Below, piece by piece: positions 11,240 to 39,258 of a DNA stretch of 64,000 bases. The notes under the pieces were generated by a model. The model did no database searches. It was not told the origin of the DNA and saw only the letters and a list, made by a program, of their open reading frames with translations. A program made the translations under genes and the position numbers. This DNA is from Colwellia sp. (GTDB taxonomy: Bacteria; Pseudomonadota; Gammaproteobacteria; Enterobacterales; Alteromonadaceae): contig NVWU01000005.1 in NCBI GenBank assembly GCA_002733765.1, positions 62,247 through 126,246 on the forward strand, given 5' to 3'. Each line of letters begins with the position of its first letter. Positions within the stretch are counted from its first letter, which is position 1.

Positions 11240-11252
11240 CGCTAATAATTAT

Positions 11253-11283: not shown

Positions 11284-11522
11284 TACTATTTGCCAATAGC
11301 GCATTGCTAAAATTTATAATCATTTAATCCGTTATTAATAAAGGTATTATCCAATAAATCAAATATTTCTAATAGAAATTTATGAGCATTGTTTGAGAAA
11401 AAAGTAAGCATAGCAACTGATGAACCAGAAAAAAGGCTATTCATTGAACCTACTGTATTTAAAACTTGCAGTGACACAAAATATGTCAAGACTCACGACA
11501 AGTCCCAAAATAGTCTTTTAAC

Positions 11523-12239: not shown

Positions 12240-12245
12240 TTCTTA

Positions 12246-12599: not shown

Positions 12600-12617
12600 G
12601 TGAATCCTTTTACTGTT

Positions 12618-12941: not shown

Positions 12942-12956
12942 TTTAGCTCCCTTGTG

Positions 12957-13931
12957 TTATTTAACAATTTCTTGAATAAACAAATCTTTATAATCATTTC
13001 CTTTGATATAGGCATCTAAGTTTCCATCAATAATCTGACTAAATGAAACTTCTGATTCTGGTGAGTCACCAAATGAGCTTAAAACTTTAACTGTGGCAAT
13101 TTTTTTACCGGGTAAAGTGATAAACATTCCTGTTTGAGGATTCTTAACTTTTTTGCCTGACTTAACTACCTCAAAAATTGACCCTTGTGTAATATTTTGA
13201 GATTTACCACCAGAGATTATTAAATTACCTTCATCATAAGAAAGAATATAAGAACGCCATGTTTTACCTAACATATTTTCAATAATATTCGATGCTAAAT
13301 CAGTAATAGCAACATCTATTACCTTGTCATTTAAGGAACTGTCATAAGCCGCTTTATCACCTACACCTAGTACAGTACCGGCTTCTGAATAAGCTATGCC
13401 TTTACCTTTTTCTGAATAAATAATTTGACCTGTAGATACATCAATAATGCGAATATTTACCGTAGCATTAGCTTCTTGGCGTTTAACACGTGAGAAAACC
13501 CCTACATCACTAACTTCTTTGCGTCCGAATTCCGTAATTGAACCAACAATTAAAAAATCGGCGGCATTATTTAGGGCCGAACTGCCTGACATGGAAAGTT
13601 CTTTTTCAATTTTTGTTAGGTCAGCACGCTCAAGCATGATGAATTTACCTGTTTCAAATAGTTTAGATGAAAGAATATCCATGGCTTGTTTACCAATACG
13701 ATTATTATCATTATCAATAAAAAAACTTTGTCCATAGGTTGTTTCGTTAGTGAAACGTCCAATAGCAACTTTTCTTTTTAGATATTTAGTTTGATTGGCA
13801 GTTTCTGCGATTGTTTTACTTACGGTAGGGGGTTGAACAGGTGTTTTGTAGATTTCTTTTTTGTCGACTGTTGCACAACCAGTAAAGATTAGACTAACTG
13901 ATATAGCGAATATTAGAATTTTGTGATTCAT
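12957..13931 (-). CDS. CsgG/HfaB-type outer membrane lipoprotein
   Basis: A 324-residue lipoprotein (lipobox IFTGC, C16) with a CsgG-like nucleotide-free Rossmann-type domain at about residues 45-200 (KRKVAIGRFTNET, DILSSKLFETGKFIMLERADL, ADFLIVGSITEFGRK, ATVNIRIIDVSTGQIIYSE). CsgG forms the curli secretion pore, but no curli genes are here; this belongs to the CsgG-DUF4810-DUF799 lipoprotein set. A C-terminal region of about 100 residues (from GNLIISGGKSQN) forms an extra beta domain not found in short CsgG. The ATG at 13931 is chosen because AAGGAAAGAT lies just before it and the lipobox then falls correctly; an in-frame start 42 bases upstream would spoil the signal peptide. Confidence 0.87.
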   Translation of the reverse strand: MNHKILIFAISVSLIFTGCATVDKKEIYKTPVQPPTVSKTIAETANQTKYLKRKVAIGRFTNETTYGQSFFIDNDNNRIGKQAMDILSSKLFETGKFIMLERADLTKIEKELSMSGSSALNNAADFLIVGSITEFGRKEVSDVGVFSRVKRQEANATVNIRIIDVSTGQIIYSEKGKGIAYSEAGTVLGVGDKAAYDSSLNDKVIDVAITDLASNIIENMLGKTWRSYILSYDEGNLIISGGKSQNITQGSIFEVVKSGKKVKNPQTGMFITLPGKKIATVKVLSSFGDSPESEVSFSQIIDGNLDAYIKGNDYKDLFIQEIVK

Positions 13932-14450
13932 ATCTTTCCTTGATAATATTAATAATTGAAAGGATACTAACACGGATCAAATAAAAGCTACTATTGTTAT
14001 TAAATCAACCCAAAAAATGGTTAACCTTCCAATCTTAAAGCTAGCCTTTAATGCCTGATATTTGCTGCTCTCTCTTTTTTGCGAAAAAATACATAATAAT
14101 ATATAAAGCGTCCCAATTTCATTTAATGTTGGAAAGTATTACAGCTAATATTTGTTTACAATACAGTCTGTTCAATTAGCCTTAAAAATATTTTAATACA
14201 TAACTTTTTATCAAGGTGACCTCCCCCCTATTCGCATAGCTCCTTTCAATAAACACTGACATTTTTATCTTGCTGAGTATATTGTCGAATGTGAGATTGA
14301 ACATTCACCTCAATTATGACTGGCGTGTATGCGTCTGGGCGACAACACATATTTGTAGCAATGAAATCGTACAGCTATAATCTAAAAAGTTACCTTTTTT
14401 TGAAATGACGAGTGTTCTTTACTATACGCTTACAAGAGTGAGTTGCTATC
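13932..14450. other. Long AT-rich intergenic stretch with no recognised gene
   Basis: About 520 bases between the CsgG operon start and the AbrB-like gene. It should contain the promoter of the lipoprotein operon. No open frame with a ribosome binding site, no clear terminator and no repeat-family copy was seen. The composition becomes less AT-rich near 14220-14340, matching the beginning of the acquired patch. Confidence 0.4.
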
Positions 14451-24800: not shown

Positions 24801-24819
24801 AATAGGAATGATTATCATT
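24801..24819. promoter_or_regulatory. Fur box A, upstream of the pseudoazurin/Ni-SOD operon
   Basis: The 19-base site contains AATGATTATCATT-type core (7-1-7 symmetry) and fits the gammaproteobacterial Fur consensus in 15 of 18 defined positions by eye. It lies 32 bases before the ATG of the pseudoazurin gene, where binding of Fur-Fe(II) would block transcription. The operon would thus be switched on when iron is scarce. Confidence 0.75.
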
Positions 24820-24850: not shown

Positions 24851-25291
24851 ATGACTAAGTTAACAATATTCAGCCTTTGCCTACTTCTTTGCTCAAGTGT
24901 AGTAAATGCTAAAGAACATATAGTAAATTTAAAAACGACTGGTAATAACGGAAAAATGATGGTGTTTGAACCGATGTTATTACAGATTTCTGTTGGTGAT
25001 ACGGTAAATTTCATTCCTTCTGACACATCACATAATGCCGTCTCATTTTCAGTGCCCTCTGATAAATCAACATTTAACACGCCATACGGAAAAGCAACAA
25101 AAATCACCTTCAGCGAAAAGGGTGTTGTATTAGTCAAATGCCTACCTCATTTTGTTATGGGTATGATTGGCGTTATTCAAGTTGGTGATGATGTTGATAA
25201 AACAAAAGCATTAGCTGATTGGAATGCCATTAAGGATGGCGTTGCTATGAATAAAGAAGCAGTAGATAAGGCATTAGCTAAAATAAAATAA
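24851..25291 (+). CDS. Pseudoazurin-type periplasmic blue copper protein
   Basis: A 146-residue cupredoxin with signal peptide (1-20, ending VNA). The type 1 copper ligands are a histidine in DTSHNAVSF and the cluster VKCLPHFVMGM, giving Cys, His and Met with pseudoazurin spacing. The C-terminal helical tail (about 115-146) is also as in pseudoazurins. It carries electrons in the periplasm, usually to nitrite or nitrous-oxide reductase or to cytochromes; none is in the window. Here it opens an iron-controlled operon with nickel superoxide dismutase, which suggests a role as copper-based replacement for an iron electron carrier. That role is inference. Confidence 0.85.
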   Translation: MTKLTIFSLCLLLCSSVVNAKEHIVNLKTTGNNGKMMVFEPMLLQISVGDTVNFIPSDTSHNAVSFSVPSDKSTFNTPYGKATKITFSEKGVVLVKCLPHFVMGMIGVIQVGDDVDKTKALADWNAIKDGVAMNKEAVDKALAKIK

Positions 25292-25986: not shown

Positions 25987-26005
25987 AATATTGAAGGATA
26001 ACGTC

Positions 26006-26509
26006 ATGCTATATAACTTAATTCAAAAATTAGATGAAAAAGTACATTTTTCAACCGTGTCAGCTCATTGTGATATTCCCTGCAAAATTTATGATCCTAT
26101 TCATGCTCAACTAGCAACATTAACCATGATAAGAATGGTTGATTTACTAAATGAATTACAAAATAAATCTGAATTATCTATTAATGATCAAGCTCAATTT
26201 TTACGTTTAGTTACGCAAAAAGAAACACATGGCATTCAGGTAAAAAAAGAAATTACCGTTATTTGGGGTGATTTTATTAAAGCACCTCAATTAGAGAAAT
26301 TTCCTGAAATTCATTCACTAGTGCATAGCATTATGCTAGAAACATCGAATGCGAAACAACGTATTAGTAAAGAAGCAACCTTATCTTTATTAGCAAAAGT
26401 AAATCGTTTTGCCGAAATATTTTGGCATTGCAAAGGCATCCAAACTTATAAGGCACAATGTCCATATCCACCAGAGCAAGATTTAATTTACCCTGTATTA
26501 ACTTCATGA
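26006..26509 (+). CDS. sodN: Nickel superoxide dismutase precursor
   Basis: A 167-residue precursor of Ni-SOD. The diagnostic nickel hook HCDIPCKIYDP starts at residue 21, so a 20-residue propeptide would be removed to free the N-terminal histidine that, with the two cysteines, binds nickel. The following helical bundle (AQLATLTMIRMVDLLNEL; HSLVHSIMLETSNAKQRIS) and a C-terminal YKAQCPYPP fit the family. The mature form of about 147 residues is somewhat longer than that of Streptomyces (117). Start: the ATG at 26006 has AAGGAT 7 bases before it; a TTG at 25991 would lie between the ribosome binding site and the preceding stop. The sodX start overlaps its stop. Confidence 0.93.
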   Translation: MLYNLIQKLDEKVHFSTVSAHCDIPCKIYDPIHAQLATLTMIRMVDLLNELQNKSELSINDQAQFLRLVTQKETHGIQVKKEITVIWGDFIKAPQLEKFPEIHSLVHSIMLETSNAKQRISKEATLSLLAKVNRFAEIFWHCKGIQTYKAQCPYPPEQDLIYPVLTS

Positions 26510-26805
26510 CATTTTTAGGTTTAAAAATTTGGAAAGTAACTGGGCATAGCATGTTTCCGAGTATTCCTCAGCATAGCTATGTTTTAGTTGTTCATTGGTT
26601 TAAATTTAAAAAACTAAAACCTGATCAAACAATATTAATAAACCATCCTCAACACGGCTTACTGATCAAAAATATCGCATTAATAGACAAAAATGATTTG
26701 GTTTGGTGTAAAGGTGAAAATTTATCTAGCATCACTGTTGAAAAGTTAGGTCCGGTAAATAAAAGGCAAATCATTGGTAAGGCATTAAAAATATTTAAAA
26801 ATTAG
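26506..26805 (+). CDS. sodX: Ni-SOD maturation protease (S24/S26 family)
   Basis: A 99-residue member of the signal-peptidase-like S26 group. The catalytic serine lies in VTGHSMFPSI (residue 15) and the lysine in a LLIKNIALID segment; small residues and KGENLSS follow the type. SodX-like proteases cut the SodN propeptide ahead of the hook histidine. The ATG overlaps the sodN stop (ATGA), a classic translational coupling. An upstream in-frame start would intrude into sodN. It closes the Fur-controlled operon; about 40 bases later the next Fur box begins. Confidence 0.88.
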   Translation: MTFLGLKIWKVTGHSMFPSIPQHSYVLVVHWFKFKKLKPDQTILINHPQHGLLIKNIALIDKNDLVWCKGENLSSITVEKLGPVNKRQIIGKALKIFKN

Positions 26806-26842: not shown

Positions 26843-26861
26843 ATTGAGAATGATTTTCATT
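26843..26861. promoter_or_regulatory. Fur box B1 upstream of the haem receptor
   Basis: The site matches the Fur consensus in 16 of 18 defined positions by eye (GAGAATGATTTTCATT core). It lies 61 bases before the TonB receptor ATG and is the strongest Fur box in the window. Confidence 0.8.
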
Positions 26862-26891
26862 TACAGGTGAATATAAACAACGCATAATAGA

Positions 26892-26910
26892 AACAACAAT
26901 GATTCTCACT
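26892..26910. promoter_or_regulatory. Fur box B2 upstream of the haem receptor
   Basis: A second Fur-like site (AATGATTCTCACT core; 14 of 18 positions by eye) lies 31 bases after B1 and 11 bases before the receptor ATG. Two boxes would give cooperative repression overlapping the ribosome binding region. Confidence 0.6.
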
Positions 26911-26921
26911 TAGATTTACAT

Positions 26922-28955
26922 ATGAAAGCCACTTCACCTTCCTATTTTAAAACTTGTCTCTTCGGCTATTTTGCCTTTTTTAATCTGACAAGTTTTGCTG
27001 AAATTATTAACCAACCAGATGACAATCACCTTGAACATATCGTTGTTTCTGGCACCCGCACACCTAAACTACTATCAAATTCTCCTGTGTCAATTCAAGT
27101 TATTGATCAAGAAACGATTAAAATACTAACACAAGGTACTTTAGCTAACGCGCTTAATTACATTCCAGGTGTGGTGGTTACCCGTAACGTTAAAGGCGGT
27201 TACAACATACAAATGCAAGGTTTTGATGGTGATCATGTACTCGTTTTAATCAATAGCCAACCATTAATATCGCCCGCGGGCTCAGCAGCAGATTTAGACC
27301 AAATAAATGCTAATGAAATTGAACAAATAGAAGTATTACGCGGTGCGGCATCAGTGATGTATGGCAGCTCAGCCATGGGTGGGGTGATTAATATTATCAC
27401 TAAAGATTATGATGAAAACCAAGCTCAAATTAGTACACAAATAGGTCATTACGCTGACGCACTAAGTGATGATCCACTTTCATATACCACCCGAGTTAAC
27501 GCCAGCCTTTCTAAAGGTGATTGGGATTATAAACTAAGCTTGCTACACATTAATGATTCTGGTTTTGATTATGAGCCATCAACCATTAAGCAAGATGCCA
27601 GTGGCATGAAAAAATCGTTCATTAATCTCTCGACAAAAACAGATTCACTTAGCTTCTTTACCAATAATAAAGTAAATACTGAAGTTAAATATCAATATTT
27701 GAATGAAGATAAATCTCGCCCCGTCTCTATTGTACCGGGACAAAACAGTATTATTACTTACGTTTCAAAAGTTGAGCAAAATCAAGTAGATTTCTCATTA
27801 AGTACTGATGCTTTTAATACTGAACAACATGAAAATCAGCAAACTAGTTGGCAATTAAATACCCGCTATATTAATCATCAAGAAACCAGTGGCCAGTCAA
27901 GTAGTATTCGAAATACTGATATTAATCTTGCTGAAATCAATGGCCAATATGTCTCGTCAAGTGACAACTTAGAAATAGTTTCAGGTGGTGTTATCCACTT
28001 TGACAGCTTAGAGCAAATAAAACCAGCAACAAGCTCGATTGAAATTGATGATGAGTCTCGCCAGAATATTGATGCTTTTATTCAAGCTAACTGGATTAAT
28101 CCAAATTATCAAATTTTAGCTGGCCTTCGTACTCAACATGATTCTGATTTTGGTTTTCATTCAGCAGCCAGAGTAAGTACCTTGAACAAGTTTGGTGATA
28201 AGGAAAATAGATGGCAATGGCGAAATGGCATCGGCCAAGGCTATAGAGTACCTAGTTTAAAAGAACGTTTTTATATATTTGATCATAGTAACTTAGGTTA
28301 TATGGTGCTTGGTTCAACTGACCTAAAACCTGAAGAATCAAATACCATCAATACCACCTTAAGCTATAACACTGATGTATTTAAGAATTCAACATTATTT
28401 AATCAAGCTCAATTAAATCTAGAAGTGAATGCTCACTACTCTAAAACTAAAAATTTTATAGAAACGGTTCGTGACCCTGAAAAATCAGCAGAAACACAAC
28501 TCGATATTTCGGTCTATCAAAACGTCGCTCGAGCAACCATTCAAGGGCTAGATTTTAGTATTGATCTTAGCTTTAACGAATGGTCAGGACAAATAAATTA
28601 CAGCTATTTAGATGCAAAAAATGAAGATGGGCAACGCCTTACCGAGCGCCCTTATCATCAACTCAAAACCAATCTCGCTTACCATAATTATGAACATGAA
28701 TTAGATGTTCTATTTTACCTTGTTTATCAATCAAATGAAGCATACAACAGTGATTATGCTCAAGAGCTAAATAACCATTGGTTTAGCGCAAATATCAATA
28801 TAAACCAAAACATAAATGACCAATTTTCATGGAATTTTGGTGTCAGCAATATTTTCAATGAACATAAAGACGTTAATGCCAATAGCCTAAACGCGTTTGA
28901 CTCACGACAAGTATCAAGTCGCAACATAACGTTAGGCATTGCCTACCAGTTTTAA
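26922..28955 (+). CDS. hmuR: TonB-dependent haem receptor, HmuR-like
   Basis: A 677-residue outer membrane receptor: signal peptide (1-26), a TonB-box-like EHIVVSGTR segment, plug domain (about 45-165; PGVVVTRNVKGGYNIQMQG, VLRGAASVMYGSSAMGGVINIIT) and a 22-stranded barrel ending in NITLGIAYQF. Degenerate FRAP and NPNL haem-receptor motifs are visible as YRVPSLKERFY and STDLKPEES. It heads a unit with a HmuY lipoprotein, an ExbB-like protein, DUF2149 and a CobN-like chelatase, which is the composition of the Porphyromonas/Bacteroides hmu locus; haem is therefore the likely substrate. Two Fur boxes lie before it. Confidence 0.88.
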   Translation: MKATSPSYFKTCLFGYFAFFNLTSFAEIINQPDDNHLEHIVVSGTRTPKLLSNSPVSIQVIDQETIKILTQGTLANALNYIPGVVVTRNVKGGYNIQMQGFDGDHVLVLINSQPLISPAGSAADLDQINANEIEQIEVLRGAASVMYGSSAMGGVINIITKDYDENQAQISTQIGHYADALSDDPLSYTTRVNASLSKGDWDYKLSLLHINDSGFDYEPSTIKQDASGMKKSFINLSTKTDSLSFFTNNKVNTEVKYQYLNEDKSRPVSIVPGQNSIITYVSKVEQNQVDFSLSTDAFNTEQHENQQTSWQLNTRYINHQETSGQSSSIRNTDINLAEINGQYVSSSDNLEIVSGGVIHFDSLEQIKPATSSIEIDDESRQNIDAFIQANWINPNYQILAGLRTQHDSDFGFHSAARVSTLNKFGDKENRWQWRNGIGQGYRVPSLKERFYIFDHSNLGYMVLGSTDLKPEESNTINTTLSYNTDVFKNSTLFNQAQLNLEVNAHYSKTKNFIETVRDPEKSAETQLDISVYQNVARATIQGLDFSIDLSFNEWSGQINYSYLDAKNEDGQRLTERPYHQLKTNLAYHNYEHELDVLFYLVYQSNEAYNSDYAQELNNHWFSANININQNINDQFSWNFGVSNIFNEHKDVNANSLNAFDSRQVSSRNITLGIAYQF

Positions 28956-29011
28956 AAATAACTTAAATTAATAACTAACAACTAAAAAACAATAACCTTT
29001 TGGAGAATATA

Positions 29012-30118
29012 ATGAATAACAAATTTACCCTAATTGCCTGCTTATCCGCAGTATTAGGTTTAACGGCTTGTGGTAGCGACTCTGATAGTTTTAAGCCGCC
29101 TACTACAGGTCCTGAAGTAGGCGTAATTCATGGACCCTTTACAACAGGAACCGTGCAAGCACGTACTTTCGCTTATTTCGATGTTGATACTTTATCAATA
29201 GTTGAATTAACTGAAGAGCAAGCCGCTACTGATACGAGTTGGGATATAGCTTTTAAAGGTACAGGTGTATTTTTAAATACTAATGATAGTGATAATGATA
29301 AAGCACCCGTAAGTCTATATTTCACCGGCAATAACAGTGAGTTTTTTGATGCTGAAGGTAATGCGGTAGTTGATACATTCATTAATGCCACCGCTGATGG
29401 TGAACTAGATGATTTTGTTGCTGTAACAAGTGCAGATATTCCAGCTAATGAAGAGTTTTTAACAGATGACACCAAGGGTATTTTAGACGATTTTTACAAC
29501 TATAATGCCACTACACACCAAGTAACTGCGGCAGATGAACACTACTACATTGTTAATTCCGACACTACCTTAACTAAATATAGAATTACTACTTTGACAC
29601 AAGCTGGCTATGGTATGTCTGATTTTACCATTAGCTTTGCCAATCAATTATCCGGTGCTACTGAATTTGACACTATCACTACAGAATTAATGGTTGATGC
29701 GGCAACCGAATGTAGCAGTAATGATGAAATTTATGTCGATTTTGATGTCAATGGTATCGTAACAAGTACTGATGCATGGGACATAAAAATCCCTTGTCTT
29801 GATGATAACACTGGTGCTGATTTCACCTTAACCTTGGCTGATGATGCCACAGCAATACAAGACTTTACTAATAATTACGATGGTATCCCTGTAGAAAGTA
29901 TTTCTTATTATGGCTTTAAAACAGATCAATACACTGTTTTAGCTTTTAAAAATCATGCTTGGTACAAATATAGCCTTGAAGGCAACCATAAAATTTGGTC
30001 TCAATATGGCGTTTATTTAGTTAAAAATGCTAATGGTGTTTTTAAACTACAAATCACCAGTTATTACGATACTGACGGAAATTCAGGTAATTACTCATTC
30101 CGTGTTGAAGCACTTTAA
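29012..30118 (+). CDS. hmuY: HmuY-family haem-binding lipoprotein
   Basis: A 368-residue lipoprotein (signal peptide, lipobox LTACG, C17 or so) of the HmuY family. The characteristic SWDIAFKGTGVFLNT strand and repeats of the same type (DAWDIKIPCLDD) are seen, with the all-beta character and final NYSFRVEAL. HmuY takes haem from host or environmental haemoproteins and hands it to HmuR at the cell surface. It is longer than Porphyromonas HmuY (about 216), apparently by a duplicated half. Start: TGGAG lies 6 bases before the ATG at 29012; an upstream in-frame TTG precedes that site. A strong terminator follows, partly uncoupling it from the inner membrane genes. Confidence 0.87.
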   Translation: MNNKFTLIACLSAVLGLTACGSDSDSFKPPTTGPEVGVIHGPFTTGTVQARTFAYFDVDTLSIVELTEEQAATDTSWDIAFKGTGVFLNTNDSDNDKAPVSLYFTGNNSEFFDAEGNAVVDTFINATADGELDDFVAVTSADIPANEEFLTDDTKGILDDFYNYNATTHQVTAADEHYYIVNSDTTLTKYRITTLTQAGYGMSDFTISFANQLSGATEFDTITTELMVDAATECSSNDEIYVDFDVNGIVTSTDAWDIKIPCLDDNTGADFTLTLADDATAIQDFTNNYDGIPVESISYYGFKTDQYTVLAFKNHAWYKYSLEGNHKIWSQYGVYLVKNANGVFKLQITSYYDTDGNSGNYSFRVEAL

Positions 30119-30147
30119 TTTTGCTTAACCAATAATTATCACCCCGA

Positions 30148-30180
30148 AAGTTACTTGAGTCCTATGCACTCAAGTAACTT
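30148..30180 (+). terminator. Intra-operon terminator between hmuY and hmuU
   Basis: A perfect 13-bp stem (30148-30160 with 30168-30180) with a 7-base loop and a following T-rich tail. It lies 30 bases after the hmuY stop. With hmuU starting 32 bases later and no second Fur box seen, it probably attenuates rather than ends transcription, giving more receptor and hemophore than chelatase. Confidence 0.88.
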
Positions 30181-30211
30181 TTTATTTTATCTTTTTATTT
30201 AAGAGCATTTT

Positions 30212-30808
30212 ATGATCAGCACCATCGAACAACTTATGTACCAATTGTCAGACTTTTTTATGGCACCGGTACTATTACTCATCAGTGGATTATTTATTTA
30301 TGCTTTGTTTGCCAGTGGACAATTTTTTGCCCAAAGCATACAGCGTCGAACAAACAAAACACATTTTCAGCAATTACTGTTAAGTAAACTTGGTGAAAAT
30401 AAGCAGTTAACCTTAGCTGGTTACACTTTATCTCAACTTGCCAATAAACAACCAAATATCAGCAAAGATCAACTTGATGTTGCCGCACTTTGCAACCTTG
30501 AAGGCGTAAGAAATGTCAGCCGCTTGGCACCTATGTTAGGCCTAATAGCGACAATGGTACCTATGGGGCCAGCATTAAAAAGCCTTGCTGACGGTAATAT
30601 TCAAGGTATTAGTGAAAATCTTATCGTCGCTTTTTCATCCGTTATTTTTGGTTTAGTTATTGCCTCAATTACGTTTTGGATAGCCTCAGTAAAAAAACGT
30701 TGGTTAGCCGAAGAGTTAGTGGCACTTACACCTTTATTACAACATGTCCCCATAACACAAATTATTCAACCAACTGAATTAAAGGAGCAAAAACATGCGG
30801 CTGCTTGA
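30212..30808 (+). CDS. hmuU: MotA/TolQ/ExbB proton-channel family protein, HmuU-like
   Basis: A 198-residue inner membrane protein with helices at about 17-38, 98-120 and 140-165. The ExbB/TolQ/MotA signature is visible in VSRLAPMLGLIATMVPMGPAL and the third helix AFSSVIFGLVIASITFWIA. Such proteins form pentameric proton-driven channels that power TonB or a dedicated partner. It is followed without gap by the DUF2149 gene, which has one membrane helix like ExbD/TolR. Together with the CobN-like protein this matches the HmuU position in Bacteroidetes hmu loci. Its last codons overlap the next start. Confidence 0.87.
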   Translation: MISTIEQLMYQLSDFFMAPVLLLISGLFIYALFASGQFFAQSIQRRTNKTHFQQLLLSKLGENKQLTLAGYTLSQLANKQPNISKDQLDVAALCNLEGVRNVSRLAPMLGLIATMVPMGPALKSLADGNIQGISENLIVAFSSVIFGLVIASITFWIASVKKRWLAEELVALTPLLQHVPITQIIQPTELKEQKHAAA

Positions 30809-31100
30809 TGAAGATGAAAGTATGAATCCTGCCTTATCAGTGGTCAACTTAGTTGACGTGTTTTTAGTACTAATTGCAGCTTTATTAATAGCCATTGCAC
30901 AAAACCCATTAAATCCTTTTTTAGCTGAAGACGTTACCGTGATCAAAAATGCCGGTAAAGAAAACATGGAAATTATTGTCAAAAAAGGTAACAAAATAGA
31001 ATCCTTTAAAAGCCAAGGAAAAACCGGCGCAGGCACAGGAAAAAAAGCAGGTACAGCATACGAAATGGCTGATGGTTCAATTATTTACGTCGCCGAATAA
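30795..31100 (+). CDS. hmuV: DUF2149 protein, HmuV-like
   Basis: A 101-residue protein with a short cytoplasmic start (MRLLDEDESMNPALS, the family hallmark), one membrane helix (about 18-38, LVDVFLVLIAALLIAI), and a periplasmic Gly/Lys-rich tail. DUF2149 proteins accompany MotA/TolQ/ExbB-like proteins and CobN-like chelatases; by topology they resemble ExbD/TolR. The ATG overlaps the last 14 bases of hmuU and has AAGGAG in front, so translation is coupled. It probably completes an energising complex for HmuS or HmuR; the mechanism is not established. Confidence 0.87.
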   Translation: MRLLDEDESMNPALSVVNLVDVFLVLIAALLIAIAQNPLNPFLAEDVTVIKNAGKENMEIIVKKGNKIESFKSQGKTGAGTGKKAGTAYEMADGSIIYVAE

Positions 31101-31155
31101 ATACGTAACCTAGCGACAAAACACCTTAAAAAATGAATAACATTAGAGCGAAAAA

Positions 31156-34100
31156 ATGAAATTAAAGCGTCCTACACTCCGCTTATTACCATTACTTATC
31201 GTAGTAATAAGCTTATTAACTAGCTACTTTACCGTTGCCAATGAAGCACTAACAACAAAATTACTGTTTGTCGGCTCCGCACACTCCAATAAAGCAAAAG
31301 TTACTTTATTAAAAGAAATTGCTAATAAAAACCAACAAAAAAACTGGCAAATTACTTATAAATCAGCACGTAGTTTAAAAGATCTTCAACAAGCACAAAC
31401 GTTATTTAGTCAACAAGACATTATTGTCTTTGATGCGGTATCAGCCAACGAATCAGCAAAAACTTTTGATAAATATGTATCATTACTTAATAAGACAGAT
31501 AGCAATAATAAAACAAAATTTATCAGTTTAAATTGGCTAGACAATCCAAAATCACATCAAGGTTTTACCCCAAAACAACTACAAACATTAACTGATTATT
31601 GGCAAAATGCCGGACGAAAAAACTTAGCTAACTTACTAAGGTTTCTATCGGTAAATATATTAAAACAAAATAATAAACTAACAGTTTCCGCACCCATTAT
31701 TTTTCCGATGCAGGGTATTTATCATCCGAACCAACCAAATTTAATCAGCAACAGTTTAAACGCTTACCAAGCATGGTCAGCGCCGAAAAAAGACCAACCG
31801 AGAATAGCAATATTATTACAAAGAGCATTAATTGAAAGTGAGCAAACTCAGCTAATTGATGCCACCATTCAACAGTTAGAAGAACAAGGTATTTATGTGG
31901 TGCCATTTTTCTTTGAACTTAGTCAAGTTAATGGCGATTATCGTCATTTATTGCTGTTAGCAGATGAGTTAGCCAATAAGGTAGAAAAAACGAGCCAAAT
32001 TGACTTAATTATTAGCTTTAGAAATATCCATTGGGCTAATAAACGTAAAATAGAATTTGAACAGTTTGGTGTACCTGTTATACAGGCAATGACCTATTAC
32101 TCTGGCGATCAAAAAGCTTGGGAAGCAGACAAACAAGGGGTGTCAGCCGGTATGATGTCCTTTACTTTAGTACTGCCTGAAAGCGCTGGCGTGGTTGATC
32201 CTATGGTAGTCGCGGCTATGGACATGAAAAGTCAAACCACTCAAATTATTGATTATCAGCTTGAACATTTAGTTAATAAAGCGGTAAACCTAGTTAAGCT
32301 TAAATACAAAGCTAACAAAGAGAAAAAACTAACGGTATTTATTTGGGGTGATCAAGATGTTGGTGCCTCATTTATGAATATTCCCGCAAGTTTAACGGCC
32401 ATTAGCCAACATTTAGCAAGTAAAGGCTATCAAACAAACCAGCGCGATCAAGACTATTTAACTGATAATGTGAAGCGCATTTTAGATCCCTTCTACCGCG
32501 ACTATCAATTATCTCAATTACTAGACGATGATTTAGCTGAACTCATGCCAATGACAAGTTATTTAACTTGGTTTAATAACTTACCCACGCACGTAACCGA
32601 GCCAATTAACCAGTATTGGGGCGATCCAAAAGATCACTTTATGGCCGTTGAACGCGATGGCGAGCATTATTTCATTTTACCGCGCATGCGCGATGGTAAT
32701 GTATTAATAATGCGTCAACCACCACGTACCGACAAAAAAAATGATGAGGATGCGGTATATCACCAAGGCATAGTACCGATGAATCACTTCTATTTAGCTG
32801 CCTATTTTTACGCCCGCGAATATTGGCAAAGTGATGCGATTGTGCATCTAGGTACGCACGGCTCACAAGAATATTTAGGAGGTAAAGAACGTGGTTTATC
32901 TATTTATGACCAAGGTAATTTAGCTGTTTGGGATACTCCAGTAGTTTATCCTTTTATTGTTGACGATGTTGGTGAAGCTATGCAAACCAAGCGTCGCGGT
33001 AGAGCTACTGTTATTTCTCACATGACACCACCATTTGCAGCGGCAGGCTTACATGGTGACATGAGCCACTTACATGAATTAATGCATCAATATAAGTCAT
33101 TAGATCAAGGTGGTGTAAAACAAAAAACGGCGCAGCAAATTGTTGAGTTATGTTTTAGCACCAATATTTGTAAAGACATCGCATGGCAACAAACTGAAAT
33201 AGATAAAAATTATGATGGCTTTTTTGATGACTTACACCTTCATATGGAGTCGCTCGCAACAGCTAATCAACCCTTAGGCCTACATACCTTTGGCGAACTT
33301 GCTGAACAAGAGTTATTAATATCGACTTTAATTCAAATGTTAGGTAATGATTTTACTAAACTAGCCAGTAAGTTTGAGCATGAATATTATCCATCATCAG
33401 CAGAAGCTGTTGACTTAGATAATAGTGACCATAGCCATAGCTACCATAACAGTGAGAGTAAAAATGGCGTTGATACTAACAATGACCACACTGACCACAC
33501 TGAACAAGGTAAGCAACTTGAAGGAGAAATTGACCAATTAGCCGGCTTTAAATTTGTTAAAAACTATATTGTCATGCCTGATAAAAAACCGAGTAAAGAA
33601 GCTAATAACGAACTGCCTGTTGCCGTTGATGATTTAGACGAAGCATTAAAAGCATTAGTTGCTCGTGGTAAAACCTTATACCAAGCAATGACCGGCATTC
33701 ATGAATTAGAAGCAATGACCGATTTCTTATCTAACAAATACATCCCCGTTAAAACTGGTGGCGATCCAATACGCCACCCTGAATCGCTAGCTACGGGGTA
33801 CAACTTGTATGGTTTCGACCCATCAAAAGTTCCCACCAAAGCAGCGTTTGAGCAAGGTAAAGAACTTGTTGATCAAATGATTCATAACTACCAGAAAAAA
33901 AATGGCAAGTTGCCTGACAAAATGGCTTTTTCATTGTGGTCAATTGAAACCATGCGTCACTATGGTGTGTTAGAATCACAAGTATTATACGCCATGGGCG
34001 TTATACCAAAGTGGAGTAAAGGTGGCCGAGTAATTGGCACTGAAGTTATTCCTTACAATGAACTAAAACGGCCACGTATTGACGTTGTATTGTCAGCTAC

Positions 34101-35355
34101 GGGTTTATACCGCGATGCATTCCCCAGTGTAATACAAATGCTCGCCAAAGCAGTAGAACAAGTCGCCGAACTTAAAAGTGATAGCGGCTCAATGTGGAAA
34201 AACCATGTCGCGTTAAACAGCCAACGTATTCAGGCTGAATTAACCGAGCAAGGTATTGAAGTGGATGAAGCTCAATATTTGTCAACTATTCGCATGTTTT
34301 CTAACGCATCGGGTGATTATGGTTCAGGTGTTGATGGCCCTGCTTGGGCAAGTGATACTTGGGAAACCGATAAGAAAATTTCTGATAATTATTTAGGAAA
34401 AATGGGCTTCTTCTTTGGTAGCGACAGTTCACGTTGGGGCGAAAAAGCTAAAAACGCCCAAGGCCAAGACATCCAGTTATATGCAAAACAATTATCAGGG
34501 ACTGATATTGCCCTACTCTCTCGTTCATCCAATTTATTTGGCATGTTAAGCTCTGACGATCCTTTTGAATACTTTGGCGGTATTAGCTTAGCAGTACGTA
34601 ATATTGATGGCAAAAGCCCTGATATGGTGATTTCAAATTTACGTAATGCGACTAATCCTAAAGCAGAAGATGCCGCATTATTTATGGCAAAAGAGTTAAG
34701 AACCCGTATGTTTCATCCTCGCTGGATCAAAGCAATGCAAAAAGAAGGTTATTCAGGTGCGGTATCGTTAGCCTCAAAAATGGATAACTTTTTTGGTTGG
34801 CAAGTGGTTGATCCTAATTTAGTACGTAATGATCAATGGGATGAATTTTTTGATATTTACGTCAATGATAAGCTAAATATTGGGCTCGATGAATGGTTTG
34901 AAAAAACTAATCCGGCATCACTTGCTAGAATGATGGCAAGAATGTTAGAAGCTGAGCGTAAAGACTATTGGCAAGCTGATCCTGAGCGTTTACAACAGTT
35001 GGTTGAACAATACATGCAAATGGTTAATCAATACGACTTAATTATTTTAAACGACGCACTACGTGAAAATGTCAACCAACTAGCAACAGGGTTTGGTTTA
35101 ACCGCCGTTCTTGAACAACCAACAATGAAAGACATCGCCAAACAAGTAGCGGAACAAAATATAAAAAATAAACAAGCAATGAAAGCTCAACAACAAACTC
35201 AAAATGAGCAAGTTGAAGGACAAAAGCTTGAAAAACAAAGCCAGCAACAAGAAGCTGAGCCTAATGACTTTATTTGGCAGGCTTTATTTACTATGTTATT
35301 CATCATCGGATTAGGTGGTTTACATCAGCATTTTCGAAGCAAACGTAGCGAATAA
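31156..35355 (+). CDS. hmuS: CobN-like membrane chelatase, HmuS-like haem dechelatase
   Basis: A 1399-residue protein of the CobN/BchH large-subunit family. It has an N-terminal signal or anchor helix (about 8-27) and a C-terminal membrane helix (about 1372-1390), so the body probably faces the periplasm, unlike cytosolic CobN. The chelatase signature AIVHLGTHGSQEYLGGKE (H564, H568) is clear, followed by KRGRATVISHMTPP and later PRIDVVLSATGLYRDAFP and GDYGSGVDGPAW. Residues about 743-790 hold an Asp/His-rich insertion. No cobalamin genes or CobS/CobT ATPases are near; the hmu neighbours indicate iron removal from haem, reported for Bacteroides HmuS. A terminator follows. Confidence 0.88.
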   Translation: MKLKRPTLRLLPLLIVVISLLTSYFTVANEALTTKLLFVGSAHSNKAKVTLLKEIANKNQQKNWQITYKSARSLKDLQQAQTLFSQQDIIVFDAVSANESAKTFDKYVSLLNKTDSNNKTKFISLNWLDNPKSHQGFTPKQLQTLTDYWQNAGRKNLANLLRFLSVNILKQNNKLTVSAPIIFPMQGIYHPNQPNLISNSLNAYQAWSAPKKDQPRIAILLQRALIESEQTQLIDATIQQLEEQGIYVVPFFFELSQVNGDYRHLLLLADELANKVEKTSQIDLIISFRNIHWANKRKIEFEQFGVPVIQAMTYYSGDQKAWEADKQGVSAGMMSFTLVLPESAGVVDPMVVAAMDMKSQTTQIIDYQLEHLVNKAVNLVKLKYKANKEKKLTVFIWGDQDVGASFMNIPASLTAISQHLASKGYQTNQRDQDYLTDNVKRILDPFYRDYQLSQLLDDDLAELMPMTSYLTWFNNLPTHVTEPINQYWGDPKDHFMAVERDGEHYFILPRMRDGNVLIMRQPPRTDKKNDEDAVYHQGIVPMNHFYLAAYFYAREYWQSDAIVHLGTHGSQEYLGGKERGLSIYDQGNLAVWDTPVVYPFIVDDVGEAMQTKRRGRATVISHMTPPFAAAGLHGDMSHLHELMHQYKSLDQGGVKQKTAQQIVELCFSTNICKDIAWQQTEIDKNYDGFFDDLHLHMESLATANQPLGLHTFGELAEQELLISTLIQMLGNDFTKLASKFEHEYYPSSAEAVDLDNSDHSHSYHNSESKNGVDTNNDHTDHTEQGKQLEGEIDQLAGFKFVKNYIVMPDKKPSKEANNELPVAVDDLDEALKALVARGKTLYQAMTGIHELEAMTDFLSNKYIPVKTGGDPIRHPESLATGYNLYGFDPSKVPTKAAFEQGKELVDQMIHNYQKKNGKLPDKMAFSLWSIETMRHYGVLESQVLYAMGVIPKWSKGGRVIGTEVIPYNELKRPRIDVVLSATGLYRDAFPSVIQMLAKAVEQVAELKSDSGSMWKNHVALNSQRIQAELTEQGIEVDEAQYLSTIRMFSNASGDYGSGVDGPAWASDTWETDKKISDNYLGKMGFFFGSDSSRWGEKAKNAQGQDIQLYAKQLSGTDIALLSRSSNLFGMLSSDDPFEYFGGISLAVRNIDGKSPDMVISNLRNATNPKAEDAALFMAKELRTRMFHPRWIKAMQKEGYSGAVSLASKMDNFFGWQVVDPNLVRNDQWDEFFDIYVNDKLNIGLDEWFEKTNPASLARMMARMLEAERKDYWQADPERLQQLVEQYMQMVNQYDLIILNDALRENVNQLATGFGLTAVLEQPTMKDIAKQVAEQNIKNKQAMKAQQQTQNEQVEGQKLEKQSQQQEAEPNDFIWQALFTMLFIIGLGGLHQHFRSKRSE

Positions 35356-35492: not shown

Positions 35493-36185
35493 TTAATGGC
35501 ACTCTTCAAAAATGCTAGGCACTAAATCAACCTCACGGCATAAACCATTAAAGTCAGGAACAGTAATACAAGTACCCGACTCAGTTATTAAGCCATTAAA
35601 CTTTAGCTTGTGAAATAAGCGAGATAATGTTTCTGGTGTGATGCCTAGCTGGGTTGCCAATACTTTTTTAGTACTAGGTAAAAAAAATTTATTATTAACC
35701 TGTTTTTGCTTTCGATATATCTCAGCAAAATACATCACTAAACGCTGATTAGCATTCACTTGCGTAAGCATATCTAGTGAATTCATTAATTGCCCCACTC
35801 TATTACTCATAAAGCCAATAACCTTTATAGCAAGTGCGTTATCTGATTTAAACAAATCGTTCAAACTTTTATAGCTATAACAAGTTAATGTCGTATTTTG
35901 TTCTACCTTTGCACTCATTGGGTACTCTCTAGGTGTCATAAAAATAGCCATTTCTGCAATAACACCGCCACTTAAAAAAACTTTAAACACTTTTTGTTCG
36001 CCATTAGGCATTAATCGATAAAGCGTAACCTTACCTCGACTAACCAAATAAATATTATCAGCACGATCACCTTTTTCAAAGAGGTACTCGCCTGTTTTTC
36101 TGGTGATTTGTTTACTTTTCGCTTCAAGGGTATCTTTCTGCTTTTTATTTAAAAGCTGCAATAAATTCAGTTGGGCAGCTGACAT
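35493..36185 (-). CDS. Crp/Fnr-family transcription regulator
   Basis: A 230-residue regulator with a cyclic-nucleotide-binding-like beta roll (about 20-125; EKGDRADNIYLVSRGKVTLYR, GGVIAEMAIFM), a dimer helix (140-165) and a winged HTH (about 165-225; VLATQLGITPETLSRLFHKL). The N-terminus lacks the cysteine cluster of FNR, and the cAMP-contact residues of CRP are not kept, so it is closer to the Dnr/NnrR-like branch, in which haem or NO is sensed; this is tentative. It ends CREVDLVPSIFEECH, with two cysteines and a histidine. It lies between two Fur-controlled loci and is divergent from the ABC importer by about 110 bases, so it may regulate one of them. Confidence 0.85.
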   Translation of the reverse strand: MSAAQLNLLQLLNKKQKDTLEAKSKQITRKTGEYLFEKGDRADNIYLVSRGKVTLYRLMPNGEQKVFKVFLSGGVIAEMAIFMTPREYPMSAKVEQNTTLTCYSYKSLNDLFKSDNALAIKVIGFMSNRVGQLMNSLDMLTQVNANQRLVMYFAEIYRKQKQVNNKFFLPSTKKVLATQLGITPETLSRLFHKLKFNGLITESGTCITVPDFNGLCREVDLVPSIFEECH

Positions 36186-36266
36186 TAATGTTTCCTCAAG
36201 TCGTTATTAATTATAAACAGCCTTGATAATTATCAAGTGTAAGATTACTAAAGTTGTATTATTATA

Positions 36267-36285
36267 AATGCAAATCATTCTCACT
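36267..36285. promoter_or_regulatory. Fur box C upstream of the ABC importer operon
   Basis: The site AATGCAAATcATTCTCACT fits the Fur consensus in 15 of 18 defined positions by eye. It lies 11 bases before the ATG of the substrate-binding protein gene and about 80 bases before the divergent Crp/Fnr gene, so iron status would control the importer and possibly the regulator. Confidence 0.72.
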
Positions 36286-36295
36286 TGCAACAACG

Positions 36296-37276
36296 ATGAC
36301 TAAATACATTTTCTCATTTCTATGTGTTTCTTTTTTATTAAGTCTTAACTCGACTTATGCCGAAACAAAAAAATTAACACTGGCGGGACCCGCTGCAGTT
36401 GTTAGTTACCCACTAATGGTTATGGCTACACAACAGACACTTGCGTCATCTTCAATTGAATTTTCATTCATTCGTTGGAAGAATCCTGATCAATTACGAG
36501 CAATGGTCATTGGCGAACAAATAGATTTTTCAGCTATGCCTTCAAATTTAGCTGCTATTTTTTACAATAAAGGTCACCACCTAACGTTAATGAATATTTC
36601 AGTTTGGAATATTATGGATATTATTAGCCAAGACAATTCCATGAGTTCGCTAGATCAACTATTAGGGAAAGAAATAGTTGTCCCCTTCAAAAATGATATG
36701 CCTAGTATTGTATTACAGCGATTATTAGACGCACAATTAGACAACAACGCAGAGCAAGTAAAAATACGATACAGCCATAGTTTAGCTGATGCAGCACAAT
36801 TATTGCTTACTGGAAAAGTAGAACATGCACTATTGATTGAGCCACTAAGTTCAGTTGCCTTATACCAAAACTTACATAAAGGTAATATTAAGCTTTTTCG
36901 TGTTATCAATATCAGCGAGCAATGGGAAAAAACTTTTCCTAACCTGCCTAAATTGCCACAAGCAGGCATTATTGCCAACACCACAGTTAATGCTGATAAA
37001 GCACTGATATCAAAAGTCAATAAATCTTATAAAGATGCGGTTGCTTGGTGTAATAGTAACATTATGCTATGTGCAGATATTGTTAATAAATATCTTCCTA
37101 AAATACCAAAATCTGCATTGGTTTCTGCAATAAAAAGCACAAAGCTAGAGCCAATCAACAGTAATACGGCTAAAAAAGATCTACAAGGTTTCTACCAACT
37201 GCTTGCTGATTATGACGTTAAGCGCATAGGCGGAAAGCAACCCGATGACAAATTTTATTTTCCGTTAGTAGATTAA
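36296..37276 (+). CDS. ABC importer substrate-binding protein, NitT/TauT (NMT1-like)
   Basis: A 326-residue periplasmic binding protein with signal peptide (about 1-22, ending TYAE) and the two-lobed NMT1/ThiY/SsuA-like fold: LTLAGPAAVVSYPLMVMA, a DQLRAMVIGEQIDFSAMPSN segment (lobe I), a GKEIVVPFKNDMPSIVLQRLL segment (lobe II) and LLTGKVEHALLIEPLS. Members bind nitrate, taurine, aliphatic sulfonates, thiamine precursors or other small molecules; the ligand here is unknown. The ATG at 36296 is chosen because the Fur box overlaps the codons that a longer frame from 36254 would use. First gene of a unit with permease, ATPase, CopD-like protein and a TonB receptor. Confidence 0.82.
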   Translation: MTKYIFSFLCVSFLLSLNSTYAETKKLTLAGPAAVVSYPLMVMATQQTLASSSIEFSFIRWKNPDQLRAMVIGEQIDFSAMPSNLAAIFYNKGHHLTLMNISVWNIMDIISQDNSMSSLDQLLGKEIVVPFKNDMPSIVLQRLLDAQLDNNAEQVKIRYSHSLADAAQLLLTGKVEHALLIEPLSSVALYQNLHKGNIKLFRVINISEQWEKTFPNLPKLPQAGIIANTTVNADKALISKVNKSYKDAVAWCNSNIMLCADIVNKYLPKIPKSALVSAIKSTKLEPINSNTAKKDLQGFYQLLADYDVKRIGGKQPDDKFYFPLVD

Positions 37277-37283
37277 CCTTCAG

Positions 37284-38039
37284 ATGAAAACAAAACAAAA
37301 ATTAGCGCTATATCTACTCAGTCTAACTAGTCTATTAGTGCTATGGCAAATACTGGCTAATCAGTTAAACCCAATGATTCTTGCTTCACCATGGCAAACA
37401 TTGATGCAATTATTTGAGCTAATACTAACAGCAGATTTTTGGCAACAACTTTTAGTCACACTAAATAGGTTGCTTTACGCGCTCAGTATTGCGTGCTCCA
37501 TAGGTTTTACTTTAGGCCTAATTGCTGGCAGACACGCTTGGTTAAAGTTTTATTTAGCCCCTTTTCGCTGGTTGCTGATGAGTATTCCTCCCGTAATTAT
37601 TGTACTACTTGCAATGTTGTGGTTTGGCATGGGTAGCACTATGGTCGTTTTTATTACCGTATTATTGCTTACCCCTACAATTTATATCAATACGCAAAAG
37701 TCTGTAGAGCAGATAGACAATCACTGGTTTGAGCTTGCCCAAGTTTATCAATTCTCTTGGTATCAGCGTTTAAGCAAAATTTATATCCCGGCTATTTCGG
37801 GTCCGTTGTGCGCCACCCTAATTATTGTTTGTTGTAGCGGTGTCCGTATTGTTGTATTAGCTGAAGTACTAGGTGCTCACCAAGGCATTGGGTTTGAGCT
37901 AGCCAATGCCAGTAGTAATTTTGATACCGCAGAATTATACGCTTGGGTGGTTGTTAGTTTATCTATTGTCGCTTTCATGGAACTCATACTTTTAAAACCT
38001 ATTCAATATTACTTATTACGTTGGCGGAAGCTCAGCTAA
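37284..38039 (+). CDS. ABC importer permease, NitT/TauT type
   Basis: A 251-residue inner membrane permease with about six helices (8-28, 65-83, 95-115, 120-135, 180-200, 215-240). The ATPase-contact loop characteristic of the BPD_transp_1 fold is in WFELAQVYQFSWYQRLSKIYIPAI (shown only in part: ELAQVYQFSWYQRLSKI). It starts 7 bases after the binding-protein stop and its stop overlaps the ATPase start (TAATG). It forms the channel of a type I importer with its two neighbours. Confidence 0.88.
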   Translation: MKTKQKLALYLLSLTSLLVLWQILANQLNPMILASPWQTLMQLFELILTADFWQQLLVTLNRLLYALSIACSIGFTLGLIAGRHAWLKFYLAPFRWLLMSIPPVIIVLLAMLWFGMGSTMVVFITVLLLTPTIYINTQKSVEQIDNHWFELAQVYQFSWYQRLSKIYIPAISGPLCATLIIVCCSGVRIVVLAEVLGAHQGIGFELANASSNFDTAELYAWVVVSLSIVAFMELILLKPIQYYLLRWRKLS

Positions 38040-38752
38040 TGAATAAAAAACCACTTACAAAGCAGATAAATAGCTTAATTTCACTACAAAATGTTGTTTT
38101 AACATTAGCCGATCAAAGTATTTTTAGTCATCTGTCATTAACATTTAATATTGGCGAAAAAGTCGCCCTACTTGGTGATAGCGGTGTAGGTAAGTCTTCG
38201 TTGTTGAAGTTAATTGCGGGTATTCATCAACCAACACAAGGTGAATTAACAAATAAAGCACTACGAATAGGTTATGTGTTTCAAGAACCACGTTTATTAC
38301 CGTGGTTAACCGTTGAGCAAAATATTACCGAAGTAATGAAAGCAAATGGGATCATAAAAATGCAAAGAGAGATAAAACTAACGGAATTACTAACTCAAGT
38401 TGAACTCACTCAATATAGACATTACTACCCTCATCAGCTTTCCGGTGGTATGGCACAACGTGTTTCGTTGGCTAGAGCCTTTGCAATTGAACCTGATTTA
38501 TTACTACTTGATGAACCTTTTAGTGCTTTAGACAAAAACCTAACGCAACAATTAAGTCAGCTATTAAGTCGTTTTTTAAAGCCTGAAACTACCATGATTT
38601 ACGTTAGTCATTATATAGAACAAGTACTGCCATTAGCACAGTCATGCTTATTTTTACATAACGCTTCAAGTACACAAAAGAAAAAATTCACTTGGCATAG
38701 CACTGCAAATGCAATTGAACGAGAGCAATTTCTAAAGCAATTCTATCAATAA
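38039..38752 (+). CDS. ABC importer ATPase, NitT/TauT type
   Basis: A 237-residue ATP-binding subunit. Walker A is LLGDSGVGKSSLLKLI, the Q-loop is VFQEPRLLPWLTV, the signature is LSGGMAQRVSLARAFA and Walker B is LLLLDEPFSALD, followed by the H-loop in YVSHYIEQVL. The sequence type is that of SsuB/TauB. The ATG overlaps the permease stop; an upstream TTG at 38021 is less likely. It energises uptake by the permease with the preceding binding protein. Confidence 0.92.
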   Translation: MNKKPLTKQINSLISLQNVVLTLADQSIFSHLSLTFNIGEKVALLGDSGVGKSSLLKLIAGIHQPTQGELTNKALRIGYVFQEPRLLPWLTVEQNITEVMKANGIIKMQREIKLTELLTQVELTQYRHYYPHQLSGGMAQRVSLARAFAIEPDLLLLDEPFSALDKNLTQQLSQLLSRFLKPETTMIYVSHYIEQVLPLAQSCLFLHNASSTQKKKFTWHSTANAIEREQFLKQFYQ

Positions 38753-38801
38753 ATTTTTCAAATAAAATCAAATTAAATCAAATCAACAAGGTAAGTAACC
38801 T

Positions 38802-39242
38802 ATGCCCTACCAAATATTAATTACACTTCATATTTTCGCTGCCATCGCCTTTATTGGCGTGGTATTTTTTGAAGTGATCTTTTTAGAATCAATCCGAAAA
38901 AAACTGCCCGTCGATATGATGCTATTACTACAAGAATGCATTACTACAAGAGCTCGTCAGATAATGCCTTATGTTTTAGCTTTTTTATTTCTTTCTGGTT
39001 TGGCAATGGCGCACCACCATTTCCCTCATTTTTCAAACATGATGTCATCACCATTTGGCATTTTACTTTCTATAAAAATGTTACTTGCGTTCAGCTTACT
39101 AGGTCATTTTTTTACTGCTATGTACCTTTCTCGTACAAAAAAAATGAGCTGCAATCGCTTTAAATTCATTCATTTAAGTGTTTTTTGTCATCAAATACTC
39201 ATTGTTATTTTGGCAAAAAATATGTTTTACATTTCTTGGTAA
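38802..39242 (+). CDS. Small CopD-like integral membrane protein
   Basis: A 146-residue protein with four predicted helices (about 5-27, 50-67, 85-105, 122-142). The pattern of an early LHIFAAIAFIGVVFFE helix, AMAHHHFPHF in a loop and conserved His residues in helices (LLGHFFTAMYL, HLSVFCHQ) resembles the CopD/DUF2269/YbaN-like four-helix proteins that may bind haem or copper within the membrane. It sits between the importer ATPase (49 bases) and the second TonB receptor (16 bases), so it probably belongs to the same iron-controlled unit. Function is not known. Confidence 0.7.
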   Translation: MPYQILITLHIFAAIAFIGVVFFEVIFLESIRKKLPVDMMLLLQECITTRARQIMPYVLAFLFLSGLAMAHHHFPHFSNMMSSPFGILLSIKMLLAFSLLGHFFTAMYLSRTKKMSCNRFKFIHLSVFCHQILIVILAKNMFYISW

Positions 39243-39258
39243 TAAAAAGGAAAAAATT

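Follow-up and report, generated by a model that had tools for sequence, protein, structure and literature searches.

A candidate haem de-chelatase operon, parallel to that of HmuS, in Colwellia sp. and other Proteobacteria

We analysed a 64,000-nucleotide stretch of contig NVWU01000005.1 from Colwellia sp. (the window), in which five adjacent plus-strand genes within positions 26843-35355 encode a TonB-dependent receptor, a HmuY-family lipoprotein, a MotA/ExbB proton channel, a DUF2149 protein, and a chelatase of the CobN family. With a probability of roughly 60%, we read this set as a Fur-repressed haem-iron operon whose chelatase would be anchored in the membrane and remove iron from haem in the periplasm, in parallel with HmuS. 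The HmuS of Bacteroides thetaiotaomicron is reported to take iron out of haem (Nath et al. 2025, EMBO J, PMC12583661); removal of iron from intact haem, leaving protoporphyrin IX and Fe(II), has been shown biochemically only recently, for Bacteroidota HmuS. An earlier reading of this DNA (the original prediction) had named the same five genes, and Pfam matches place all of them on the plus strand in this span. The features discussed below are as follows.

26845-26859, no strand assigned: Fur-like site TGAGAATGATTTTCA 5' of the operon, matching 12 of 14 positions of the 7-1-7 consensus
26895-26910, no strand assigned: second, weak Fur-like half-site, three mismatches away from a pattern modelled on the site above, which makes the score partly circular
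26922-28955, plus strand: TonB-dependent receptor (HmuR-like), 677 amino acids; PF00593 (1.6e-24) and PF07715 (1.7e-24)
29012-30118, plus strand: HmuY-family lipoprotein, 368 amino acids; PF14064 (2.6e-7; 31.3 bits against a cut-off of 27)
30212-30808, plus strand: MotA/TolQ/ExbB proton channel (HmuU-like), 198 amino acids; PF01618 (7.8e-8)
30795-31100, plus strand: DUF2149 protein (HmuV-like, ExbD-like), 101 amino acids; PF09919 (9.4e-29)
31156-35355, plus strand: CobN-family chelatase, 1399 amino acids, with hydrophobic anchors at the N- and C-terminus; PF02514 (2.3e-287)
32857-32859, plus strand: codon of chelatase His568, aligned with the catalytic His538 of HmuS
33379-33510, plus strand: His-rich stretch of the chelatase (about residues 742-785) in place of the Met-rich insertion of HmuS, between blocks aligned to PDB entry 9d26
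34558-34560, plus strand: codon of chelatase Asp1135, aligned with His1209 of HmuS (His to Asp)

The chelatase, the only PF02514 protein in the Colwellia genome, was placed in two trees, a quick one with 55 chelatases and a careful one with 30 of these, both leaving out a spurious open reading frame (ORF) at locus L096 and chelatase ORFs of at most 1200 amino acids (the split gene of L079 and the partial one of L076). In both trees the window clade, HmuS, CobN, and a corrinoid-linked group, type C, form separate and fully supported clades (100/100 in the careful tree for the first three). The HmuS clade holds proteins of B. finegoldii, Prevotella nigrescens, Aureibacter, and one gammaproteobacterial locus, L088; the window clade takes in proteins of Pseudoalteromonas, Diaphorobacter, and Azospirillum, and is joined next by those of Trichlorobacter and Runella (94/95 in the careful tree). 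The window chelatase lies outside the HmuS clade, on a parallel branch of the class-I chelatases. HmuS is possibly the sister of the window clade, since that arrangement is not rejected by the approximately unbiased (AU) test (p-AU 0.115); the order among the four deep clades is not settled by either tree or by the AU test. A 2026 paper on Porphyromonas gingivalis also reports HmuS to stand apart from CobN and ChlH (PMC13227078).

These placements change the identity first proposed for the enzyme. The original prediction of a Bacteroidetes-type HmuS does not stand: the protein falls outside the HmuS clade and lacks Met79, His254, His1209, Trp1202, and the Met-rich insertion. Its broader claim of an hmu-like haem operon is borne out in the gene kinds and the Fur-like sites, and fails in the identity of the chelatase, which belongs to a wide proteobacterial clade. 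Grouping with the cobalamin enzyme CobN, the outcome it had named as contrary evidence, did not occur. We rejected a B12 cobaltochelatase: the Colwellia genome has no CbiC (a corrin-ring gene) and no second CobN, the clade is the wrong one, and there is no cobalamin riboswitch in the window, where every Rfam family stayed below its gathering threshold. The best NCBIfam CobN model, NF004644, gives 1197.5 bits, just under its cut-off of 1248.

To describe the spread of the system we scanned named genomes with a 16-row profile, which yielded 391 matched stretches, and examined the best 80; counts given for the 80 named relatives refer to these. Nearly all are from Proteobacteria (Colwellia, Cognaticolwellia, Thalassotalea, Psychrosphaera, Pseudoalteromonas, Catenovulum, Bowmanella, Microbulbifer, Shewanella, and others), a single one is a Nitrospirales metagenome-assembled genome (MAG), and no title among these 80 names Bacteroidota. 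The host, originally described as Alteromonadales-like, is Colwellia-like; its nearest named relatives are Colwellia MAGs with a chelatase 86% identical. Near the chelatase, 74 of the 80 have ExbB and 74 have DUF2149; 70 have a TonB receptor and 29 a HmuY, in one case a 136-residue fragment. With such conservation the arrangement is not due to chance. Of the six loci without motor genes, two (L139, L145) start at contig ends and have a cut or split chelatase; the other four (L111, L112, L115, L116) have receptor, HmuY, and chelatase only. A class-wide search, in which 41 of 369 genomes gave any chelatase match, mixes all kinds of chelatase and served only to collect loci. Two tandem chelatase genes, of types A and B, were seen in single operons at L052 (the same as L138, a Catenovulum maritimum contig) and L063 (genome G415).

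Marks of HmuS described for B. thetaiotaomicron are His538, His1209 within LSLDHxxEFMGG, a haem site formed by Met79 and His254, a Met-rich insertion, and a transmembrane helix at each end (PMC12583661). We transferred this numbering through B. finegoldii HmuS (L098), which aligns without gaps to 9d26 over residues 1-600. The HFG(T/A)HG motif with the catalytic His appears in the window chelatase as HLGTHG, with His568; this residue is found superfamily-wide and is therefore not diagnostic of HmuS. Glu577, Ser1014, Ser1199, Asp1208, and Glu1212 of HmuS are also retained, and a single transmembrane helix is predicted at each end, solely by hydropathy. Other positions differ (Trp1202 to Phe, Gln1198 to Ser, Ser1067 to Thr, Phe502 to Asp). 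The Met-rich insertion of HmuS domain IV is absent, and the gap in which it would lie, between aligned blocks at window residue 728 (chain residue 697) and window residue 787 (chain residue 874), is occupied by the His-rich stretch. Of 16 close rows, the window included, 13 have at least six His within 40 residues at this place, against 0 of 39 others; the stretch is thus common in the close group without being universal.

Haem as the substrate is supported by the HmuY sequence and fold, haemoglobin-type receptors, Fur-like sites, and an alternation with HutZ. The HmuY-like protein exceeds the PF14064 gathering cut-off as a whole, with a single profile spread over both halves; each half alone falls below it (23.2 and 18.8 bits). 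Its lipobox Cys is present in 19 of 19 relatives, its AlphaFold2 model has a pLDDT (predicted local distance difference test) of 90, and the five best PDB fold matches of that model all belong to the HmuY family (E 2e-4 to 1e-3); whole-chain superposition on HmuY structures is poor (root-mean-square deviation 13-16). The structure alignment used 20 rows and the window, 8 of 28 full-length rows being excluded, the permuted L161 among them. The protein is about twice the usual length. The weak alignment of its halves (hhalign E 5.5e-4, probability 30%) and their opposite order in L067/L161 (Marinifaba aquimaris) suggest internal duplication, and an internal repeat is probable from the sequence; the halves may be intertwined, since the C-terminal half modelled alone is poor (pLDDT 61). 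Each half has a conserved His, His150 being invariant and His307 present in at least 90% of the rows; at most, these are candidates for a pair of axial haem ligands. A plasmid search with this protein gave no match.

A His between the GYRxP and LKPE boxes marks haem receptors, and the window receptor has one (His455) that is present in 19 of 19 relatives. Full-length HmuY is absent from 52 of the 80 loci; we scanned the 31 that have a divergent receptor beside ExbB, the other 21 being left unscanned. In 30 of the 31 the haemoglobin-family model TIGR01786 matches at E 2e-96 or better, a level about that of the curated cut-off, and TIGR01785 does so in 28.

The operon is probably under Fur-like iron control, and conservation across relatives is stronger evidence for this than the one site in the window: five sites matching at least 12 of 14 positions of the consensus occur in the window as a whole, so a single good site proves little. 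Sites matching at least 11 of 14 precede the receptors of 53 of 71 relatives (9 of the 80 loci, with no usable receptor upstream, were excluded), the rate in 437 control upstream regions being 5.9%. In an earlier set that shares some of these loci, 22 of 34 receptors had such sites, against 9.2% of 304 controls. Two Fur boxes had been claimed for this promoter; the first is recovered at 26845-26859 (12/14), and the second, at 26895-26910, is only a half-site and is absent from the sites with at most three mismatches to the consensus. Zinc control was rejected: of 34 receptors only that of L088 has a Zur-like site of at least 11 of 14 upstream, whereas 4.3% of 304 controls have one.

No haem oxygenase was detected in the Colwellia genome with PF01126, PF10615, TIGR04109, and TIGR04110, in keeping with the absence first noted for the locus; other haem-degrading families were not sought. 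We then sampled 147 genomes of the family, of which 43 have a chelatase match, classed by identity and length: 40 belong to the window clade, 18 of them with the close type A and 22 with type B, and the other 3 carry type C only. A HutZ-like protein (E of at most 1e-7) is present in 0 of the 40 chelatase genomes and in 30 of the 107 others (Fisher 3.9e-5, in a test that ignores kinship of the genomes beyond genera g285, g288, and g300). In each of these three genera some genomes have the chelatase, one has a HutZ-like protein, and none has both. HugZ was found in 0 of 40 and 28 of 107, respectively. At the four best of the 30 HutZ-like loci the neighbour is an ATP-binding cassette (ABC) ATPase whose best NCBIfam model is NF010068, of haem type (4 of 4, the cut-off being exceeded in one); a FecCD permease lies beyond it once. 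The chelatase and the HutZ route look like interchangeable solutions to the use of haem iron.

From these observations we infer haem binding, de-chelation, the location of the chelatase, and its coupling to a motor. A surface HmuY-like lipoprotein would capture haem and hand it to the TonB receptor, which would bring it into the periplasm. The chelatase, tethered to the inner membrane by its two ends, would take haem into its central cleft and release ferrous iron, leaving the porphyrin behind; ExbB and DUF2149 would form a proton motor serving the receptor, the chelatase, or both. The iron would enter through FeoB or another ferrous transporter. FeoB is present in the Colwellia genome and in 25 of the 40 chelatase genomes (44 of the 107 others); we rejected it as an obligatory partner, and its presence in only 25 of 40 means that another transporter must serve in some. 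The original view that proton-channel energy splits haem and that iron alone enters stays inferential. Most likely, the chelatase is used instead of a haem importer and oxygenase.

Several findings weigh against a haem de-chelatase. FeoB was not found in 15 of the 40 chelatase genomes. Including the two weakest HutZ hits shifts the distribution to 1 of 40 against 31 of 107; all HutZ and HugZ scores lie under the curated cut-offs; and PF01126 is present in 2 of the 40 (strongly in G462) and 22 of the 107 others. The window receptor reaches 137.9 bits with its best NCBIfam model, TIGR01785 (TonB-hemin), under the cut-off of 316.85; B. finegoldii HmuR equally falls short, with 137.0 bits. Haem site 1 is missing from the window chelatase, which has Val and Asn in place of Met79 and His254; Met79 is Arg even in the HmuS-clade rows L088 and Aureibacter. 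In place of LSLDHxxEFMGG the enzyme has LSSDDPFEYFGG, with Asp1135 at the position of His1209. Asp occupies this position in all 80 named relatives, as it does in CobN and type C; His is found in the HmuS rows, one ChlH, and three outlying rows (L073, L075, and Azospirillum L093) of the wider 32-row window clade. Finally, the nearest outside relatives lie in nickel-hydrogenase (Runella) and corrinoid (Trichlorobacter) surroundings.

The last two observations, and the His-rich stretch, also count for a module that handles another metallo-tetrapyrrole or metal complex, such as a corrinoid or a zinc or nickel chelate. The Runella copy lies inside a hyp cluster and the Trichlorobacter copy near BzaF, so the module can serve other metals, and together with Asp1135 these settings leave a non-haem substrate possible. 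CbiA/GATase, CobA/BtuR, and CbiZ flank type C chelatases, as seen in a scan of ten neighbouring proteins from six loci, and PA1922-PA1925 of Pseudomonas aeruginosa is reported to be Zur-regulated (PMC9431628, PMC13083405). We nevertheless consider another substrate unlikely for the window clade, given the Fur-like sites found across it with a Zur-like site at 1 of 34 receptors, the curated-level haem receptors in 30 of the 31 scanned HmuY-less loci, the HmuY fold, the alternation with a HutZ-like protein, and the lack of a cobalamin riboswitch in the window. It is quite unlikely, too, that haem is taken up and that the chelatase stores or carries it, or inserts metal into the imported porphyrin, with no release of iron. 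Known CobN and ChlH enzymes do insert metal, site 1 and His1209 of HmuS are missing, and the window clade is without known activity; on the other side, the catalytic His538 and its motif are retained, no other known haem-iron route was found in the genome with the four oxygenase models, and the AAA+ and VWA partners on which metal insertion by CobNST depends are not encoded by any of the five genes. A straight transfer of the Bacteroidota HmuS was rejected on residues, proteobacterial spread, and separate clade. That this is a true Bacteroidota HmuS operon gained by transfer is very improbable and largely contradicted already: the gene kinds are the same and the AU test does not reject HmuS as a sister group, but the window chelatase has its own 100/100 clade, the gene order differs, HmuT is missing, HmuS marks (His1209, Met79, His254, the Met-rich insertion) are absent, and the relative G494 (L088) has a separate protein bearing the true HmuS motif.

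The ExbB-like protein has a PF01618 domain, and its DUF2149 partner has, in each of 32 aligned rows, an Asp that lies within a transmembrane segment (NLVDVFLVL) and is the counterpart of the Asp of ExbD. The two motor genes accompany the chelatase at 74 of 80 loci of the window clade, at 4 of 4 of the HmuS clade, and at 10 of 10 of type C (L077-L086); in 5 of these 10 there is no receptor in the fetched stretch. Five CobN loci and one ChlH locus (the latter a stretch of only 6 kb) have neither motor genes nor a C-terminal anchor, and the type C locus of Marinobacter (L101) also lacks both. HmuV is reported to resemble ExbD (PMC10100974). It is conceivable that class-I chelatases come in two kinds: cytoplasmic CobN and ChlH, driven by ATP through AAA+ proteins, and membrane-anchored, extracytoplasmic HmuS, window-clade, and type C enzymes, driven by the proton-motive force through ExbB and DUF2149 acting on the chelatase itself as well as on the TonB receptor, which would make the window operon encode a proton-powered haem de-chelatase. 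We regard this as doubtful, and five intact loci whose anchored chelatase has no motor genes in the stretch (L096, L111, L112, L115, and L116, the same as L058) count against a motor acting on the chelatase. At L096, a Cupriavidus megaplasmid, an anchored, long-branched chelatase (8346 onward) is closely followed by a second one of CobN type.

Related modules were seen elsewhere. In L088 (G494, same family), positions 5346-14270 hold a receptor, a chelatase with the exact HmuS motif LSLDHVYEFMGG, ExbB, DUF2149, a MerC-type protein, and, in the place of HmuT, a 198-residue protein with no Pfam match. This module lies behind a Zur-like site (13/14) and so represents a gammaproteobacterial HmuS that may be zinc-controlled. 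Type C chelatases (L077-L086, L101) have 1440-1600 amino acids and the motif HLGRHSTYEF, that of L079 being split in two ORFs; L077-L086 lie beside ExbB and DUF2149, several with corrinoid genes (CbiA, CobA, CbiZ). On a Runella plasmid (L095, 2524-10558) a receptor, a urease-accessory-type protein, ExbB, DUF2149, and a chelatase lie inside a hydrogenase maturation cluster, a setting that points to nickel.

In the window itself, a nickel superoxide dismutase and its maturation protease lie directly 5' of the operon (25991-26805); both are also found near a chelatase in L117 (the same as L059), L149, and L157, while L135 has the dismutase without the protease. Further 5', a Fur-like sequence, AGGAATGATTATCATT, at 24804-24819 stands just before the gene of a small secreted protein (24851-25291). 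The group downstream of the operon (35493-41385) consists of a Crp/Fnr regulator, an SsuA/NMT1-like binding protein, a permease, an ATPase, a CopD-like protein, and a second TonB receptor; it includes an SsuA/NMT1-type ABC importer just 3' of the operon (36254-38752) and a Fur-like sequence at 36267-36283. Binding proteins similar to the SsuA/NMT1-like one also lie by the chelatase in Diaphorobacter (L092) and a Methylococcales MAG (L135).

If the haem de-chelatase reading is true, de-chelation of haem is a strategy of many marine Proteobacteria too (in the family sampled, 40 of 147 genomes have the chelatase) and an alternative to haem importer and oxygenase, with closely related genomes exchanging one for the other. 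It would also follow that a chelatase can do without the second active-site His of HmuS, and the question would be raised whether a proton motor drives a chelatase. Among the literature matches listed, no title or opening of an abstract describes this proteobacterial operon; most subscription papers lie outside such a search.

Several known systems can be compared with the operon. PA1922-PA1925 of P. aeruginosa, compared from papers, is reported to combine a receptor, a CobN-like protein, a proton channel, and DUF2149 in one operon as the window does, and to differ from it in being Zur-regulated (PMC9431628, PMC13083405). With the aerobic cobaltochelatase CobNST the window shares the PF02514 large subunit and Asp at the same active-site position, whereas the five CobN rows lack a C-terminal anchor, have no ExbB or DUF2149 nearby, and form a separate 100/100 clade. 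In the HmuTUV and HugZ/HutZ route whole haem is imported and the ring is opened in the cytoplasm; its presumed role, iron from haem, is the same, and in this family it is represented by the four loci with a HutZ-like protein beside a haem-type ABC ATPase, the ABC importer itself not being counted. A close parallel is hmuYRSTUV of B. thetaiotaomicron and P. gingivalis, with its HmuY, TonB receptor, ExbB, DUF2149, and anchored CobN-family chelatase with the catalytic His, and a receptor equally far from the curated haem model. The complete six-gene set is not present in Colwellia: as the original prediction had it, there is no gene in the HmuT position, and a whole-genome search with a 4-row HmuT profile, made without a positive control, gave no match. 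Unlike hmuYRSTUV, the window operon has the order R-Y-U-V-S and a double-length HmuY, and its chelatase belongs to a separate clade, with Asp for His1209, no Met79/His254 site, and a His-rich rather than a Met-rich stretch. Its hosts differ as well, being marine Proteobacteria, which are mostly not obligate anaerobes.

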